From: Thraustochytrium sp. TN22 | Taxonomy: Eukaryota > Sar > Bigyra > Thraustochytrida > Thraustochytriidae | Direction of reading: 5' to 3' | Assembly: GCA_013306675.1 (NCBI GenBank) | Contig: JABLUY010000265.1 | Location: forward strand, 1-47,019 | Length of the DNA: 47,019 nt | Shown here: in pieces, positions 24,213 to 33,038 of the stretch | Position numbering within the stretch: position 1 is the first letter of the stretch | Layout of the letters: each line of letters opens with the position of its first letter | Program-made: the position numbers and the translations under genes | The notes under the pieces: generated by a model | What the model saw: only the letters and a program-made list of their open reading frames with translations | Told to the model about the DNA's origin: nothing | Database searches by the model: none

Positions 24213-25478
24213 TCACGTCTCGCCGTTGTAGACGACAAGGTCCGAGGAAAAGGGCGGATCGGCACGCACAACGACGCCGCCGACATTGGTCGGGTGGGTG
24301 ATGTAAACCTTGCCCTCAACGCCGAGCTTCTGCGCGGTGGCGTTCATGGCCGCAGCCACCTTCTGGTCCGTGCGCTGCGAGAAGGACTGCGTGAAGAAGT
24401 CGCCTGAGCCACCGGTCGTGATGGCCATGACCACAGGACCAGCGCCCGAGAGGTAGGCGCCCGCGGCGCCAGCCTCGTAGCAGGCGTTGATGAGAGGGTA
24501 GAGATGGTGGTAGACCTTCTCACCGCGCTGAGGTTGGTGCAGGCGGTCCTCCATGCCCACGCGCAGGTTCTGCGGCTTGTTGGAGGTGAGCGCCAGCACG
24601 AGCCAGGCGAGGCGGCCCATGTTGAAGACGGCGTCCTCGAGCGAGACCTCCTTGGGCACAACCTTGCGCAGCTCCGACGTCTTGCCAACGAAGGATGGGA
24701 TAAACATGACGAAGACCAGACCGTGCGGCAGCGACACGCGCTCCGTGGCCCAGCGCTGCTCGAGCGAGTCGTAGAGGCCAACCTGCACGCCACCGTAGAT
24801 GGCAGGCGCGACGTTGTCCGGGTGGCCCTCAATCTCCGTGGCAAGCTGCAGCAGCGTTTCCTTGCCCTGCACGTCCAGCTTGTGGCCCGCGATCACGAGG
24901 CCAGCCAGGATACCAGACACAATGGCAGCCGAGCTCGAGCCCAGGCCGCGACCGAACGGGATGCGCTGCACCATGTGGTACTTGAGCAGCGGCATCTCCT
25001 TGCCAGCCGCGCGGAAGGCCGCCTCCACGCCCACAACCACCAGGTTGGTCTCGTCGCGCGGGATGTCGTCCGCGCCCTCGCCCTCCACGGTGATCTCAAA
25101 TTTGTCCGAGCGCTCCACGGTCAGCTCGTTCCACATATCCAGGGCCATGCCGATGCTGTCGTAGCCCGAGCCCAGGTTCGCGCTCGTCGCCGGCACCTGC
25201 ACCGTCACGCTGCGCCGCTCCATAATGAGCAGCGACCCGCTCTCGAGGCGCGACCGCGAAGCGTCCTCGTCCTGCGTCTTGAGCCGCTTCTCCCACGAGC
25301 TCAGCGCCTCCTTCTCGGCCGTGCGCTTCCGCGCCGCGGCAGCGCGCACCGCCTCGCGCCGCTGCACCTCGCGCGTCCTCAGCATCACCAGCGCCGCCAC
25401 GCCCGCCGCCGCGGCCGCGGCCGCCAGCACCGCGCCGCTCACTGCGCCGTTGCCCGCATCGCCGCCGCGCGCCGCCAT
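24213..25478 (-). CDS. THR1: Homoserine kinase (GHMP family), with N-terminal hydrophobic segment
   Basis: 421 residues from the ATG at 25478. The catalytic core begins near residue 86 (SVTVQVPATSANLGSGYDSI) and contains the GHMP ATP-binding loop PFGRGLGSSSAAIVSG (about 174-189) and EIEGHPDNVAPAIYGG, which is typical of homoserine kinase among GHMP enzymes. The C-terminal glycine-rich motif YLSGAGPVVMAI is also present. The reaction is homoserine + ATP to O-phosphohomoserine, the penultimate step to threonine. Unusual: before the core there are about 85 extra residues with a hydrophobic stretch (12-33, VLAAAAAAAGVAALVML) followed by a charged, probably helical region (RKRTAEKEALSSWEKRLKTQ). 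This looks like a membrane anchor or an organelle-targeting leader. An ATG at 25223 would give a soluble, core-only enzyme. Confidence 0.93.
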   Translation of the reverse strand: MAARGGDAGNGAVSGAVLAAAAAAAGVAALVMLRTREVQRREAVRAAAARKRTAEKEALSSWEKRLKTQDEDASRSRLESGSLLIMERRSVTVQVPATSANLGSGYDSIGMALDMWNELTVERSDKFEITVEGEGADDIPRDETNLVVVGVEAAFRAAGKEMPLLKYHMVQRIPFGRGLGSSSAAIVSGILAGLVIAGHKLDVQGKETLLQLATEIEGHPDNVAPAIYGGVQVGLYDSLEQRWATERVSLPHGLVFVMFIPSFVGKTSELRKVVPKEVSLEDAVFNMGRLAWLVLALTSNKPQNLRVGMEDRLHQPQRGEKVYHHLYPLINACYEAGAAGAYLSGAGPVVMAITTGGSGDFFTQSFSQRTDQKVAAAMNATAQKLGVEGKVYITHPTNVGGVVVRADPPFSSDLVVYNGET

Positions 25479-25862
25479 TCTCCACCGCGCCGCTAGCCTC
25501 GGCCCGGCTCGACTCGACTCCACTCCGCGCGGCCCGACGCTCGTCCCCGCCGCCGCCGCCGCCACTGCCCGCGCTTGCCGCGTTTGCTGCGCGCGCCGCG
25601 CTGTGCTGCGCCGCCACCCGCCACCATGGCCACCATGGCCAGCCCGACCTTAGGTCGTGCAACCAGGGCAAGTCAGTGTCTCTCTCTGTGGCAACTTGGC
25701 AAGTAACTTGGCAATAAACAGCGAGCGCAACTTCGCACTCGGACTCGCCGACTCGGACTCGGACTCGCGCGACGACGAGGACGTCCTGTACTTGAGTCAC
25801 CAAACGTTCAGGTCGTGTTCATACAACTGCTTCATGTCACATTTTCACAGGTAAACTTGCCG
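25479..25862. other. Intergenic region
   Basis: 384 bases between the 5' end of homoserine kinase and the 3' end of the cyclase gene, both on the minus strand. It contains a (GGACTC/CGACTCGGACT)n-like run near 25738-25770 and no evident gene. Confidence 0.55.
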
Positions 25863-27137
25863 TCAGCGGGTCTTTCCGATGGTGCGATAGCCCGGCCAGT
25901 CGGGCGGCGCGGTGTAGTTGTGCGACTCCATAAAGCGGAGGACGCTGCCGCAAGGCCCATCCTTCTCGCTGGGAACGATGGCGCAGGCGGCCTCCATGAG
26001 TGTGCGGGCCTCAGACCAATGACCGGCAAGGTAGACGGCCACACCCTTGCGGCAAAGCGGCAAGAAGTGGCGCGGGAGGTTCCATTGAAGCGCACGAATC
26101 TCGAGGTCGGTGCGGAAAGCCGACTTGCGCACCTCGGCGACGTTGCGCACGTGGTCAATGATAGGGCTCGGGCCGATGAGCGAGATGCGACGGTCCACGA
26201 CGATCTCCTCGTCCACCTCCTGGTAGTCGCCGCGCAGGCGAATGGCATCCAGGTGCGCGTCGAGGCTCGCGAGGTCGCAATCGAAGGTGTAGAGCGCCAC
26301 CGGGTGGTGCGTGCCCTTGAGCAGCACTTCGTCCACCTTGCGCGAGCACCTCTTGGCGTCGTCGCCCAAAAGCTCAAAGACGTCGCCGGAGAACATGATG
26401 TTTGTGCCGTAGTGGCGCGTGACGTTCTCGAGGCGGTTCGTCAGGTTCACGTGCGGCGACAGGTAGGAGGCGTCGATCTTCTGGTTCGAGCCGATGGCGC
26501 CCTCAATGGCCCACCCGATGTGCAGGCCAAAGCCGAGGCGCACCTGGAAGTCCGGAATGTGATCCCGAATGCGCGCCCCAACCGTGGTGTCCGCCGACAT
26601 GAATTGCTGCAGATCCTGGTTGCGATGCACCTCGATGGTAATCTTGAGGAAGCTGATGAGCGCCTTCTCCACAATCTGCGTCCACGTGTCGCTCTCCGAG
26701 TTAGAGCGCTTCCAGACGACAAGGAAGGCGTCGCCCAGATTGCGATTCGCATTGCCAGAGTATGCCGAGACCTGGGTGTGGACGATATTGGCGATCTCGT
26801 TCACGTAGAGCATGATGTCCTCACGCAGCACCTCGGTGGTGATCATGAAGTTGCGGATGTCGCAGAAGCCAAAGACCGCCTGCACCTTGCGGCCGGGTAC
26901 CATGGGGTCCAGCTCGCCCGAGGTGTTCATGTTGCTCGCGATGATTTCGGCACCTGCCTCGCCAAATCCTACCTGGAGAAGGCCACCGATTTTCTTGATG
27001 GAGTTCTCCAGCAACTTGGTCTCGTAGCTGGACTGCACCGCCTGCTGCCGCAGCTTCCGCTCGCGCTGTTTTTTTGCGCGGTGCGCCTCGCGACCGGCCG
27101 CCAACATACCCGATGGGTCGTTCCGATACAATTTGTA

Positions 27138-27169
<32 letters not shown>

Positions 27170-28676
27170 TTTCGAAGGTTGTCAACGGGTTTTCTGCCAG
27201 CTCCTCCACGATGCGAACCATCTTTTCGATGGGTGCGATGACCAGCTTGTGCGCGTCATACGTGAAGATCATCGTAGCCAGGCCCAGCACAAAGATGATG
27301 AAGATGGTCTGCCCGATGCTTCGCCAGGCACTTGACACCTGGTACGCCGAGTTGTCGAAGGTGCCCTCCATGTAGGTTGCGTAGACGTTGTAGAGCTCCC
27401 GCTCCTCGGGGGTCAACTCGCGCACCGATTTGCCTCCGGGCAGCACGACAGCGTAATCCGCCTGGCAGTACGCGCGGTCCGCACGTACCTCAAACTGACC
27501 TGCGCTGCTGTTGTAAAAGGTGCACACCGCGTAAGCGTCCTGCAGCTCGGCCGTGCGCAGTGTGTCAGCGCCGGCCGTGGGCGAGCCGACGAGCGTTTGA
27601 TTCAGCGTTTCAGACACGATGCCCAGGTAGAGCAGGCCGGGCGTGCCACGTTCAAAGGCCATCCTGATGTCCGTGAAGGTGTTCGGGTCAATTCGCCCCA
27701 GCTGCATTTCGATGTTGGCCCACAGTAGCATGCCCAGCGAAGCTTCAAAGCTGTAGTCCGCCTCGTCGATGTTGATGAGGGGCAAGATGAAGAGGATCAC
27801 CAGCACGACGATGATGACGCGCCTTGTAGTGAGGTCCGCCAGCTTAGCGCCCACCTTGCTCTGCTGCTGGCTTCCTAGCGGCACCGGCTTGCTGAGTGTC
27901 GACGGTCGCTGCTGGACGACCGACTGCCGTTTACGGATTAGGTAGCGCGCCATGTACCCCGTGCTGGGCTTGCGCTTGCGCTTGTGCGGGCGGCCGCGCA
28001 TCGCCATCCGGTCGCGGTAGCCGGAAATGAACTCGTACAGCTTGAAGAGCCGTAAGAGCCGCAGCAGCCGCAAGATGCGCAGCAAGCGCGCAGCACGCGC
28101 TCCGGCCCTCGAGGCGCGCCCCGCGCGCGTCACGGTCAGGTCGTCCGCCTCGGCGCCAAAGGAGTCCACGCCTGCCACCACGAGGTCCCAGATCAGCGGG
28201 ATGTCCGGCACGAGCGACACCGTGGCGAGCACGTCGAGCCAGAAGAAGAAGCCATACTTGAAGTCCGGGATCACCACCGTCTTGGCAGAGATCTCCGCGC
28301 AGAACACCAACAGCGTGAAGAGCGACAGGATACCAAAGGCGCTGTCCGCCGACTTGGAGAAGAGCGCCAGCTTCAGGTCGTCGCCAAAGAGCGCAAAGAT
28401 CGTCAGTGCGCCTGTAATGATCGACACGACCGGGTTCGTCAGCATCTGCTTGATGCGTACGTGCGAACGCGGGAGCAGCTCCAGTTCATCCGCCTCTGCG
28501 GTCTTCTTGTCACTCTTCCGCATGAAGGACTTGGGCAGCACCTTGACGTTGTTGTGGGCTGGCTTGGTATGCGCCGCACCGCTCGCCGCGCCAGCCCGCG
28601 AGTTCGACGCGCTGTTCAGGCCCACGTCGTCTCCTTCCGAGGCCGGTTCAAGGCCAGGCTTCTGCGGTGCATCGGA

Positions 28677-28707
<31 letters not shown>

Positions 28708-30461
28708 TGTTGCTGCTGCTCGTGTTGCTGTTGTTGCTTGCCGTCAAGCGCCGCAATGATGTGGTCAAAACGACCGAAGCCCTTGCCTCCCTTTTGTGGC
28801 TTGATCTCCTCCAGAAGACCGACGGATGACTCTAGCGATTGCTTGATCTCGGCATCGCGGCTTGGGCCCGCTCGCAGGTGCGCCAAGAAAGCGTCCGTGG
28901 CGCCCGTGGTACTGAGCGTCTGCTGCTGCAAGGCGAGGAAGTCGCGTCCCTTGAAGAGCAGCGGCGACAGCGAGCTGCGAGTCATGTGCCTGATGGTGTG
29001 CTCGTCCGTGAGGCCAGGCCGCAGGTGCGCATCGAAGCGAGTATGTGCAAAGGTCTCTGCGAAGGCCTCCGTGCGCTTGAGCACAGTGGACCGCAGTTCG
29101 GCTAGATCGGCGATGGCGGCGCTCGAGAGTTTGTTGCTGTCACCACCGCCGCTTGCGGTAGTATGAAGCGCCTTGAGCACGTGGTCAGACCACGCAGCGC
29201 GGTTCAGAAAGAGGTGCGCTAGTGGCTCTTGAAGCGACGGACATTGCTGCGTGAGTGGAACCCAGAGCGGCGCAGCGACGAAGTCTGCAAGATTCAATCC
29301 GAGCAGACTCTGCATCAGCGCCGGGTCCCCCTCGGCTACTCCCGCGGACGTTGGCGATGTGCTCGCGATGCGTTCCAGCCAAACTTGCGCGCGCTCGCGC
29401 GGCAAGCACGCAGCGCACTGCTGCACGGCGCGGAACGCTCCCTGCACCACAACGCGCTGCACGACGGCAGCCTCGGAGAAGACGCCAGTGTGCACCGATA
29501 CACCACCCGAGGAGTCCGCTTGGCTATCGATCTCGTACGCCCGCAACAAGTCCAGGTTGCGCACCACGGCCCAGTGGCACGCCGGGTCAGTCGCTGCTGC
29601 GCACCAGTGCAGCGTCACGCGCAGCGTGCGCGCGTCCTGCGGCTGGAGCTTGTCGACCAGTGTCGAGTTCGCCTCGAAGAAAATGCGCGCGGCGTTGTGC
29701 GCCTCGTCGCGATGACCTCGCAGCACCAGCGGGGCCAGCAGCATGCCGAGCGCGTGCACCTCTGTCAACCGCAGGTCGGAGCCCATGTTGCGAAATTCAC
29801 ACAAGTTTATGAGGAAGCACGCCATCACGTGCATCTCCGCCACGGCGCCGGCGTTGGCCCTCCCAAGGCCACGCACCGCCTCGTAGAGAAGATCTTCCTC
29901 GAGATGAGGGACGTGGTCGCCGAACCCGAAGACGCCCAAAATGTCCACGGCGCGCGCGCCGTGGTCCTCGTCGCTCGTCTGCCTTGCCTCTGCTGTCTCC
30001 GCGGGCGATTCCGCGGCGGCCCCGGCCTCAGCTTCCTCGTCCCCATTCTCGATCTCCAGCACCTCGGTGGACACCGCGCGCGCGACACTGTCACGCGGCG
30101 GCTGCTCTGGGCCCTTCTCCCACGAGAATGTCCCTCTCAAGCGCCGCAGACGCTCCCTCGTGTTGAACAGGCGCGATAGGTCGTCCTCCGTGTCGTGACC
30201 TGTCCTGCGCGTGCACGCGTCGCCGAGGTTCTCTTCGAGCCACGCCGACGTGAGTGGGTCGAGGTCCACGTCGCGCACGCCCTTCTCGGACCACAGGTCG
30301 CGAAGTGCATACTGCACGATGAGGTCCTGCTGGCCGCGCACGATGTCTGTGAGGCGCTGAATCTCACCGATGGTGGTCTCCAGCGCATCGCCATTGGCGC
30401 CCAACTGCTGCGAGTCCCGCTGCAGCGGGAAAATTCGTCTTGTTGTGACGCGCGTCAACAT
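25863..30461 (-). CDS. Voltage-sensor / ectodomain / class III nucleotide cyclase fusion
   Basis: 1532 residues, one exon, ATG at 30461. Residues 1-660 are a mostly helical cytosolic region of unknown family with a polyQ stretch (about 575-600). Residues 670-820 are an S1-S4 bundle: hydrophobic segments near 675-695, 705-725 and 735-755, then an S4 with RAARLLRILRLLRLLRLFK, seven charges at every third position. A further TM (about 880-898, RVIIVVLVILFILPLINI) leads into a roughly 140-residue domain with sequons NQT and NSS, then another TM (about 1045-1065). A helical linker with D9 precedes the cyclase domain (about 1190-1395). Both metal aspartates are visible (FCDIRNF and LGDAFLVVW), as is the N…R pair in PHVNLTNRLE. 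No K+-channel filter is seen. Makes cAMP or cGMP; substrate uncertain. Related to ciliate and apicomplexan channel-cyclase fusions by general plan. Confidence 0.93.
27142..27170. repeat. GTC/GAC microsatellite coding for polyaspartate
   Basis: A GTCGTC run on the plus strand encodes nine consecutive aspartates in the cyclase linker, between the last membrane segment and the catalytic domain. The equivalent position in receptor cyclases is the signalling helix, so its length may matter. Confidence 0.8.
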
Positions 30462-31529
30462 GGTGCCGGCGTCGGCGGCCTGCGTGTGCAGGCCAGCAGC
30501 AGCGCCGGGCCCCGCGCCGCCACGCTCGCGCCGTGCTCGCGCTTCGCTCTCCCCGTGCTTTTTCTTTCCGTCCGGTCCGAACGCCCACGCGTTTTGCTGC
30601 TTCTCGTCTTTGCTTGCTTGCTTGCTTGCTTGCTCGCTCGCCCGCCCGCCCGCTCGCCCGCCCGCTCGCTCGCCCGCCTGCTCACGCGCGCGTCAACAAC
30701 TCAACTCGAGGAGCTCGCTCAGCACCCGCCGTCCATGGCTGGCGCCGAGCTCTGCCACTGCAATGCCGTGCGCACCGCCGCTGTTGCTCGCCAGCAATGA
30801 CAACAGCAGGAGCCCTGTCAGTGACGCTTGCCTTCGCGTGGCCTAGTTGGCCATTCGATTGGCCAAGGCCGGTGGTTCGGAAAAGCAAAACGGTACTCTC
30901 AGCCCCACCTGGCTCAGTCAGGCTGGCGACGGCAGGCGCCGTGACGGCCCGGGTAGGGCCGACCAGCCTGCACTCTTCGTTGCCTGTCAGTGCTTGTGAG
31001 GGTCCGCGGCACTGTGAGAGCACTCTCTCGACTCCCTCCACTCGCCCAGAAGCCGCGACGCTTTGCGCTGGGTGCTTTAGTAGCGGAGTTCGCTCGTAAG
31101 AAACGAACAGTGAGCCAAGCTTGCTCTAACCATCTCGCAAGTAAGTTATGTTAGCCTGAGGCCTCGGTACCCGTGCAACGCGCACGTGAAAGTCGGGCGA
31201 CGCAACGGGCAAGCGCGCCTTGTGGGCGGCGCGAGCCTCGGCTTCCGCCAGGGCGTATCTTTCCGACTGACTGTGAGGTTTGATAACAGTTTGTCCGTCT
31301 GCTTCTCGATCTGAAAATGCCACCGAGTCGCCGGCGATCGTAGCTTGGCCAGCCCGCCTCGTTTTCCACGTCCTTCTCCGAGCCCTCCCAGCGCGCCACG
31401 TCGCCCGCCGAGTCCTCGTACCAGGCTGTGCCAGTGGTACCGGATCGGTACCGACGCGAGTCCGGTCCCGCGCTCCGGTACAGCGGCACGAGGCAGCGCG
31501 AGAGAGCAGAGCAGAGGGCGAACAGTGGC

Positions 31530-31586
<57 letters not shown>

Positions 31587-31643
31587 GGGCGAGCGGCGGG
31601 CGGCGCAGCGCGAAGAGGCGGCCGGCGACGTGCGGGCCCGTTC
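30462..31643. other. Divergent promoter region, cyclase / NIPA-like transporter
   Basis: About 1.2 kb. It includes a CTTG tetranucleotide run merging into GCTC/GCCC repeats (about 30610-30685), less GC-rich sequence at 30830-31330, and the (GGGCGC)n array before the NIPA gene. No supportable gene. Confidence 0.6.
31529..31588 (+). repeat. (GGGCGC)n hexanucleotide array
   Basis: About ten GGGCGC units in the 5' region of the NIPA-like gene, ending about 55 bases before its ATG. A frame across it would read Arg-Ala repeats; I treat it as 5' UTR. Confidence 0.9.
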
Positions 31644-33038
31644 ATGGGCGTGCTCGGCAAGAACCGCGGCGGAGGTCTCAAGGCGTCGGCGCGCCCCGTG
31701 CACGCGCGGCGGCGCAAGGGCAAGGAGGTAGAGGAGCTGGAGGCGGAGGAGGAGGAGGAGGGGGTGCTGGAGGAGGAGGAGGAGGAGGAGGAGGAGGAGG
31801 GCAACCAGGACCGCAACAGCGTGGTGCGCACGGCGGTCAAGCCGCCGAGCGGGCCGCCGCGTGACTTTGGCGTGGGCGAGCTCACAACCTCTGACTCGGT
31901 CAGGTACCTGGACGGCAAGGTCGCCGCCGCGGGCCTGGCGACCGGGCGCAAGCGAGGCATCCGCGCGTGGCAGCGCCTCGAGGCTGCGCGGCACAAGGCG
32001 GCGGACCACGCCATGTGGATCAAGGTGGGCCTGCCGCTGTTTTTGCTGGCGGCCATCGAGGGTGTGCGCCTGTCGGGCGCATCCAAGGTCGGCGGCGCAG
32101 CGGGTGCCGGCGGCGGCGGGGGGGATGGCCTGAGCGGGTCCATCCTCATTGGCATCGGCCTCAGCGTGGCAGCCTCATTCATGAACGCGACGGGGCTTAA
32201 CCTGCAGCGCCTGGGGCAGAACGCGGACAAGGGCAAGAAGCCCAAGGGCTTGCCGCTGAGCCTGAACACGATTGGCATTCTCCTGACGGCAGGCTCTGGC
32301 GTCATGGACCTCATCTCGTTCGGCTTCGCGCCGCAGAGCCTGCTGGCGCCCTTTGGCGCCATGACGCTCATCGTGAACCTTATCCTGGCGCCCGTTCTGC
32401 ACAATGAGAGCCTGGCGACTGTGGACATCGTGGCGACAGCGCTGGTATGCGTGGGCATCGCCATCGCGCTCGCCGCCAGTCCGGCCACTTCGCCGGCGTA
32501 CACCTTGCGGGACCTGCAGACGCTTCTGTCGCGGCCCGTGGTCCCGGTTTTTCTGGCGGCGTATGTGCTCGCCATGGTCGCGGTGGCTTTGCACATTTAC
32601 CAGGGTGAGGCGAACGGCAAGGGTTCAACCAAGGTGGTTGGCGCGGGCTACCCGGTGCTCTCTGGGATGCTGGGCGGTATCACCACGCTGAGCGCCAAAA
32701 CCATGACGGAGCTCTTCAAGGTCGTGACCCTCGCATCGCACCCACAGCTGCTGGTTCCGGTCATTGCAGTGCTCGCGGTCTGCGCGGTCACGCAGGTCCA
32801 GGTACTGAACCGCGGCCTGGGCCGTCACTCGTCGCTCTTCGTCGTGCCCCTCTTCTCCGCGTCCATCCTGCTTGCCAACCTGTCAGGCGGCGGGGTTGTC
32901 TTTAACGAGTTCGCCGCTTTCAAGCCTGCGCAGCTGGCCAAATTTCTCGTGGGCGTAGCCATTGTGGTGACCGGCGTCACGGCGCTCGCCACCAAGGAGG
33001 AGAAACCAGTGGAGGCGGCTACCAAGAAGCGGGAGTGA
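31644..33038 (+). CDS. NIPA-like magnesium transporter (DMT superfamily)
   Basis: 464 residues from the ATG at 31644. The N-terminal 125 residues are hydrophilic with a 17-plus residue glutamate-rich block encoded by GAG repeats. The membrane part has about nine spans: IKVGLPLFLLAAIEGVRL, then GSILIGIGLSVAASFMNATG, LNTIGILLTAGSGVMDLISF, LAPFGAMTLIVNLILAPVL and so on to ITTLSAKTMTELFKVV and FLVGVAIVVTGVTALA. The helix-loop sequence 'LNLQRLG' and 'FGFAPQSLLAPFGAMTLIVN' is diagnostic of the NIPA (DUF803) family, which moves Mg2+ at the plasma membrane or endosomes. The first span before the NIPA core is extra. The end is basic (KEEKPVEAATKKRE). Confidence 0.93.
   Translation: MGVLGKNRGGGLKASARPVHARRRKGKEVEELEAEEEEEGVLEEEEEEEEEEGNQDRNSVVRTAVKPPSGPPRDFGVGELTTSDSVRYLDGKVAAAGLATGRKRGIRAWQRLEAARHKAADHAMWIKVGLPLFLLAAIEGVRLSGASKVGGAAGAGGGGGDGLSGSILIGIGLSVAASFMNATGLNLQRLGQNADKGKKPKGLPLSLNTIGILLTAGSGVMDLISFGFAPQSLLAPFGAMTLIVNLILAPVLHNESLATVDIVATALVCVGIAIALAASPATSPAYTLRDLQTLLSRPVVPVFLAAYVLAMVAVALHIYQGEANGKGSTKVVGAGYPVLSGMLGGITTLSAKTMTELFKVVTLASHPQLLVPVIAVLAVCAVTQVQVLNRGLGRHSSLFVVPLFSASILLANLSGGGVVFNEFAAFKPAQLAKFLVGVAIVVTGVTALATKEEKPVEAATKKRE

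Follow-up and report, generated by a model that had tools for sequence, protein, structure and literature searches.

Enzymes that are switched directly by the membrane potential are few, the voltage-sensing phosphatases being an example in which a voltage-sensor domain (VSD) drives the enzyme directly and no pore is involved; SLC9C1 is described as a VSD-regulated transporter. Two pore-less 'bimodal' VSD-cyclases, PPTG_13136 and PPTG_13761 of Phytophthora parasitica, were published in 2025 (PMC12223298), and a pore-less VSD-cyclase family, as that report describes it, is thus already known and in print. The fusions of ciliates and apicomplexans, described for Paramecium, Tetrahymena and ACalpha of Plasmodium, combine a K+-channel-like N-terminus with a C-terminal class III cyclase and a GXG motif after the sixth span (PMC3283738, PMC12414865, PMC2279260); the account of their architecture calls it 'radically different' (PMC3283738). 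Here, we describe a gene on a stretch of 47,019 nucleotides from Thraustochytrium sp. TN22 (contig JABLUY010000265.1, positions 1 to 47,019; hereafter the window), whose product appears, with a probability that we put at roughly 60%, to be a pore-less membrane class III cyclase with a VSD ahead of a receptor-like core, integrating voltage and ligand. The combination of VSD, cyclase, long loop and lack of a canonical pore motif makes a voltage- and perhaps ligand-controlled cyclase the best reading. What is added here to the known family is the finding of bacterial members whose loci agree in gene order, a sister protein with an RGS output, an argument, drawn from the pattern of conservation, that the loop belongs to a receptor, and a reason to doubt the pore of the alveolate enzymes.

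Compared by description, the window protein resembles PPTG_13136 and PPTG_13761 in having an N-terminal Ion_trans/VSD region with an S4, a C-terminal Guanylate_cyc domain and no pore-helix homology (PMC12223298), and at the level of sequence the S4 charges, the C-terminal cyclase and the absence of pore-helix homology that mark a pore-less VSD-cyclase were all found. In contrast to the Phytophthora proteins as described there, the window copy has an N-terminal extension of 650 residues, and bacterial proteins of the same layout were found here; the term 'extracellular loop' is absent from the main text of that report. The window protein and its parts are as follows.

25863..30461, minus strand: whole open reading frame (ORF), 1532 amino acids, VSD and putative receptor-like class III cyclase (single open frame, codon usage)
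28500..30461, minus strand: N-terminal extension with a Gln-rich tract, residues 1-654 (coding-like by GC3 and codon usage)
28005..28448, minus strand: voltage-sensor domain S1-S4, residues 672-819 (partial Ion_trans match, conserved S2 and S3 residues)
28041..28127, minus strand: S4, residues 779-807, ten basic residues (charge pattern)
27756..27827, minus strand: fifth transmembrane span (TM5), residues 879-902 (hydropathy 2.62)
27324..27755, minus strand: loop, residues 903-1046, presumably extracellular, a putative sensor ectodomain (length, drift, sequons)
27258..27323, minus strand: sixth transmembrane span (TM6), residues 1047-1068 (hydropathy 2.11)
26907..27257, minus strand: PIEKM..LAENPL linker with an Asp run and an insert of about 40 residues, then the LLQVGFGEAGAEIIASNM pre-cyclase motif, residues 1069-1185 (51-61% identity to four relatives)
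26271..26906, minus strand: class III cyclase catalytic domain, residues 1186-1397 (Pfam PF00211, alignments)
25866..26270, minus strand: conserved C-terminal tail, residues 1398-1532 (12 invariant columns in five sequences)

The full layout is common to all five full-length sequences, two of which come from the window's genome and three from bacteria. The second cyclase of the genome, C398, is encoded by an ORF of 908 aa, has its parts in the same order and is 48% identical over residues 1145-1397, and the bacterial proteins L027, L028 and L029, all from metagenome-assembled genomes of Candidatus Poribacteria, are encoded by one ORF each of 869, 790 and 776 aa, with a shorter S4 than that of the window protein and without the linker insert.

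As the original prediction had stated, two further spans enclose a loop of about 140 residues with N-glycosylation sequons, the exact figures being 144 residues and N954 and N984, and a TxGYG-like filter is missing: a pattern scan for [T/S]xGxG, by which the TxGYG-type filter of K+ channels would be recognized, gave no match anywhere in the window protein. In length the loop ranges over 157 residues in C398, 234 in L027 and 160 in both L028 and L029, and its identity to the window loop is 22% in C398, 17% in L027 and 11% in L028 and L029, compared with 39%, 33%, 34% and 34% in the VSD and 58%, 51%, 59% and 61% over the aligned positions of the linker between TM6 and cyclase (C398, L027, L028 and L029, respectively). 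Thus, the drift of the loop in length and sequence next to a conserved VSD and linker fits a receptor ectodomain and not a pore. Weak similarity nevertheless extends into the loop: the alignment of the window loop with that of L028 scores 58 against a shuffle mean of 27, a score reached by 0 of 200 shuffles, 1 of 200 shuffles reaches the score with L029, and the stretches PGLLYLGI/PRLVYLNL and QFEVRADRA/AWFDIRHEKA are shared between the window and bacterial loops. From this conservation pattern and the weak similarity, we infer that the loop may be a folded ectodomain; none of the CHASE, Cache or PAS domains that had been considered was detected by Pfam in residues 871-1070.

Between TM6 and the catalytic core, the sole glycine-aromatic/aliphatic-glycine motif of the five family cyclases is the GFG of LLQ(V/I)GFGEAG, located at residues 1165-1167 of the window protein within VGFGE (1164-1168). 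In an alignment of 22 rows, in which the loop of the RGS protein described below was wrongly aligned with cyclase columns (another alignment was used for folding), the GFGEAGAEII columns coincide with the pre-catalytic segment of 16 other cyclases, such as TFGRYVSPQI of L058, the segment reading FVP in nine, YVP in one and variants such as RYVSP in six of these. The spacing from the GFG to the catalytic GFCD is 33 residues in 5/5, and in this family the motif thus seems to belong to the segment leading into the catalytic domain and not to a pore. One alternative, which we regard as unlikely, is a true channel-cyclase in which TM5 and TM6 would line the unconventional pore of a tetramer, or the GFG would re-enter the membrane, and ion flux would control the cyclase, an arrangement put forward for the Paramecium enzyme. 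The reports of K+ conduction by the Paramecium adenylyl cyclase and of a GXG after TMD6 in its relatives (PMC3283738) lend it weight, as do the VGFGE of the window protein and the poor modelling of the loop in both the window and the L028 predictions; it is opposed, however, by the alignment of the GFG with a pre-catalytic segment, by the variability of the loop, which is very high for a pore, and by the distance from TM6 to the GFG, which varies (97 residues in the window protein, 59 in C398, 56 in each of L027, L028 and L029) while that to GFCD is fixed. In the original prediction, a K+ pore was placed between S5 and S6 of the ciliate and apicomplexan fusions, which is at variance with the placement of the GXG after TMD6 in the description given by PMC3283738. 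Since these fusions also carry their GXG after the sixth span, the supposed pore of the Paramecium and Plasmodium enzymes may be the pre-catalytic segment, and the GFG alignment raises a concrete doubt on the pore assigned to them; the difference that remains is that a K+ conductance is reported for the Paramecium enzyme, whereas the GXG of the window protein would be a pre-cyclase segment.

Returning to the pore-less cyclase, the predicted sensor was examined by a hydropathy scan (19-residue windows, peaks >1.0), which gave peaks for S1 (674-692), S2 (708-726), S3 (734-762), TM5 (882-900, 2.62) and TM6 (1049-1067, 2.11). S4 gives no peak because it is too charged, and because of further weak peaks, one at residues 1158-1176 (1.06) and six within the N-terminal 650 residues (1.01-1.43), the spans are not numberable from hydropathy alone. 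The strongly charged S4 of the original prediction is borne out by ten basic residues (R779, R782, R785, R789, R792, R795, R798, R801, R804 and K807); the longest run of R/K at every third residue is seven, a length attained by 1 of 1000 shuffled versions of the sequence. A basic S4 is present in all five full-length family cyclases, and FxxE in S2 (F720/E723) and D743 in S3, which together correspond to the gating-charge transfer centre known from voltage sensors, are invariant in these five and, with the RGS protein included, in 6/6. In the window protein Pfam matches only the sensor half of Ion_trans (residues 703-816), at an E of 7e-4; the curated cut-off is exceeded by L027 and not by the window protein, C398, L028 or L029. 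A PDB search with a profile of the membrane module gave five weak rows, all of them sensor regions: four of Kv1.2 at profile positions 45-139 (E 0.046-0.054) and one of KCNQ2 at 2-66 (E 0.84). It might also be considered that the VSD is a proton- or cation-leak domain similar to Hv1, which exemplifies that pore-less VSDs can conduct by themselves, or a mere anchor or dimer interface, with the loop alone regulating the cyclase; we judge this improbable, as the periodicity of the S4 charges and the FxxE/D residues are kept from bacteria to protist and a mere anchor would not need them.

The output of the preferred voltage- and ligand-controlled protein is a predicted cyclase: Pfam Guanylate_cyc (PF00211) matches residues 1199-1390 at E 2e-8, above cut-off, which upholds the earlier claim of a VSD joined to a class III cyclase. 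D1201 and D1244, the metal-binding Asp pair, and N1339 and R1343, the transition-state residues, are present, and the equivalent positions are kept in 5/5. At the substrate-lysine position, the window protein has R1240 and the other four have K; at S1332, the substrate-specifying position otherwise held by Thr or Asp, all five have S. These residues may favour ATP as the substrate, with doubt remaining for the window copy, and the protein is most likely an adenylyl cyclase working as a dimer. That it is instead a low-activity or regulatory cyclase forming a heterodimer with the C398 paralogue, as the arginine in place of lysine and the presence of two family cyclases in one genome might suggest, is very improbable, since the protein retains its metal and transition-state residues and the change to Arg is conservative.

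The most probable reading is that the protein is a receptor-like core, consisting of TM5, extracellular loop, TM6, PIxxM/LAENPL linker and cyclase, with a VSD in front. In this putative topology, voltage sensing by S4 motion would be transmitted through the S4-TM5 linker to TM5/TM6 and from there to the register of the helix entering the cyclase dimer, and the same TM5/TM6 helices would also respond to a ligand or an ionic condition detected by the loop. Through such coupling the enzyme would integrate the membrane potential with an external cue, its product probably being cAMP, and no ion pore would be involved. This would resemble the voltage-sensing phosphatases, from which the window protein differs by its cyclase output and by two extra transmembrane spans with a loop between; a PTEN-like phosphatase after the VSD was not matched by Pfam in the window protein. 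A pore-less voltage-sensor cyclase of this kind would couple excitability to second-messenger signalling within a single polypeptide.

Several observations weigh against this interpretation. R1240 stands where the substrate lysine is expected. The homology of the loop is uneven, as 29 of 200 shuffles reach the score of the window loop with L027 and 123 of 200 that with C398. The comparison covers four relatives only, two of which, L028 and L029, are near-copies in the VSD (95%). With E up to 10, Pfam recognizes Guanylate_cyc in L027, C398 and the window protein but not in L028 and L029, whose assignment as cyclases is based on their being 45% identical to the window protein over about 203 positions and on the match of the L028 model to cyclase folds. 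A HAMP domain between TM6 and cyclase was not detected by Pfam, and hhalign, run on very shallow alignments, gave probabilities <1%; among the three cyclases used for comparison, Pfam confirmed a HAMP domain for L047 alone. The only NCBIfam match after TM6 is BarA at residues 1051-1090 (E 0.15). Structure prediction had been proposed as a check. The model of the window protein, built from a two-sequence alignment, had a mean pLDDT of 33. AlphaFold of L028 returned S1-S3 as helices (block pLDDT 78-92) and TM6 as a single helix (357-410, blocks 62-66), with 53-72 for the S4 block, whereas the loop was mostly at pLDDT <50 and TM5 at 50-62, with a pTM of 0.37; with such low confidence in loop and TM5, the structure does not decide between pore and receptor. 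In a Foldseek search with the L028 model, the best 50 of 466 matches all contain a class III cyclase domain and are therefore silent on the VSD and the loop.

The bacterial relatives were found by scanning the species-genome collection with an alignment of the cyclase part through two short patterns, by which divergent members could be missed. Three of 149 pattern stretches were confirmed, namely L027, L028 and L029, with 46-49% identity in the cyclase part. The full protein occurs in 3 of 84 genomes of the Poribacteria phylum, 10 of which give any match at E 1e-5, and full-length members were found in 3 of 386 relatives searched, three further genomes matching in the cyclase part only. In all three loci the gene lies within a sugar ABC-transporter cluster, a solute-binding-protein gene being located upstream, and a pair of permease genes together with the gene of a MalK-like ATPase downstream:

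L027:1865-8921, L028:2146-9258 and L029:2139-9275: VSD-cyclase within a sugar ABC-transporter cluster (ORF lists, Pfam for L027)

For L027 Pfam confirmed the ATPase, the binding protein and the first of the permeases, while the second permease and all neighbours in L028 and L029 were matched by eye. The VSDs of L027 and L028 share 52% identity, and the common gene order is therefore not due to near-identical genomes. In a tree of 28 cyclase domains, a branch with 100/100 support separates the five family proteins from 23 other cyclases; the three bacterial proteins group at only 80/77, so that the direction of transfer is not readable from the tree. Among viral contigs, 81 and 137 pattern stretches yielded no relatives, and of 95 matching plasmid records none covers >80% of the query, the best among the matches listed covering residues 421-830 of L027. 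A bacterial VSD-cyclase or VSD-RGS fusion is not named in the titles or abstract openings of the open-licence literature matches listed. The bacterial members speak against the published view of a family confined to stramenopiles and alveolates; they suggest a design that is wider than the water moulds and readable as a voltage-tuned receptor, and make the voltage-cyclase idea testable in a simple host. In all three Poribacteria loci an additional ORF, possibly PilZ-like, lies downstream on the opposite strand; the L027 copy has no Pfam match.

The membrane module also occurs in the window's genome in front of a different output. The C16 (L012) protein, an 830-codon open frame, has a VSD (profile E 9.5e-31), TM5 and TM6 with a shorter loop between them, and a linker of the PI type; an RGS domain follows (PF00615, E 8.8e-14; score 52.3 bits, cut-off 23.9):

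L012:1-2463, genome C16:49608-50777 and downstream, minus strand: VSD-TM5-loop-TM6-RGS gene (profile and Pfam)

It is a candidate voltage-tuned G-protein regulator. A genome search with its VSD-TM6 part (E 0.01) returned only itself, the window gene and the C398 gene; one genome thus places the same membrane module before two outputs, cyclase and RGS. It might be speculated, and we would advance this tentatively, that the VSD with its span-ectodomain-span unit is a portable voltage-and-ligand input module of bacteria and protists with varied outputs (cyclase, RGS), and that at the same time what has been called a 'K+ pore loop' in the ciliate and apicomplexan enzymes is a misread pre-catalytic GFG, those enzymes being pore-less too.

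The frame from 25863 to 30461 is not interrupted by a stop in the ORF scan of the window, and in codon-usage scoring the ORF frame beats the five other frames in all 16 of its 100-codon windows; 5' of the ATG it is ahead in 0 of 3. The training set contained codons 655 onward of the same ORF, so that independence is limited to the N-terminal windows; the final window of the 16, which extends beyond the stop codon, scores slightly negative. The preference along the whole frame argues for one coding unit. The 654-residue N-terminus is missing from C398 and the three bacterial proteins. Pfam gave no family above cut-off on residues 1-654, PDB matches were weak (best E 0.047) and mostly over the Gln-rich stretch at about residues 575-600, and a search for a second genomic copy found none, other matches being weak as well (best E 0.002) and mostly in the Gln-rich part. 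A RhoGAP domain had been guessed for residues ~210-250 and was rejected, as none of 17 PF00620 matches in the genome (E up to 10) lies on the window's contig.

The host assembly comprises 37.9 Mb in 453 contigs. It contains IFT57 (E 4.7e-97) and 90 Ion_trans matches, from which a flagellated eukaryote appears most likely; Phytophthora parasitica is likewise flagellated as described in PMC12223298. Four consecutive Ion_trans matches on each of the contigs C87, C432, C375 and C205 suggest four-repeat voltage-gated channel genes. On the window itself, the cyclase ORF is neighboured by a 450-aa ORF (24213-25565, minus strand), which by its resemblance may encode a homoserine kinase, and upstream of the cyclase gene lies an ORF with many hydrophobic spans (31428-33038, plus strand), presumably similar to the NIPA-type magnesium transporters.

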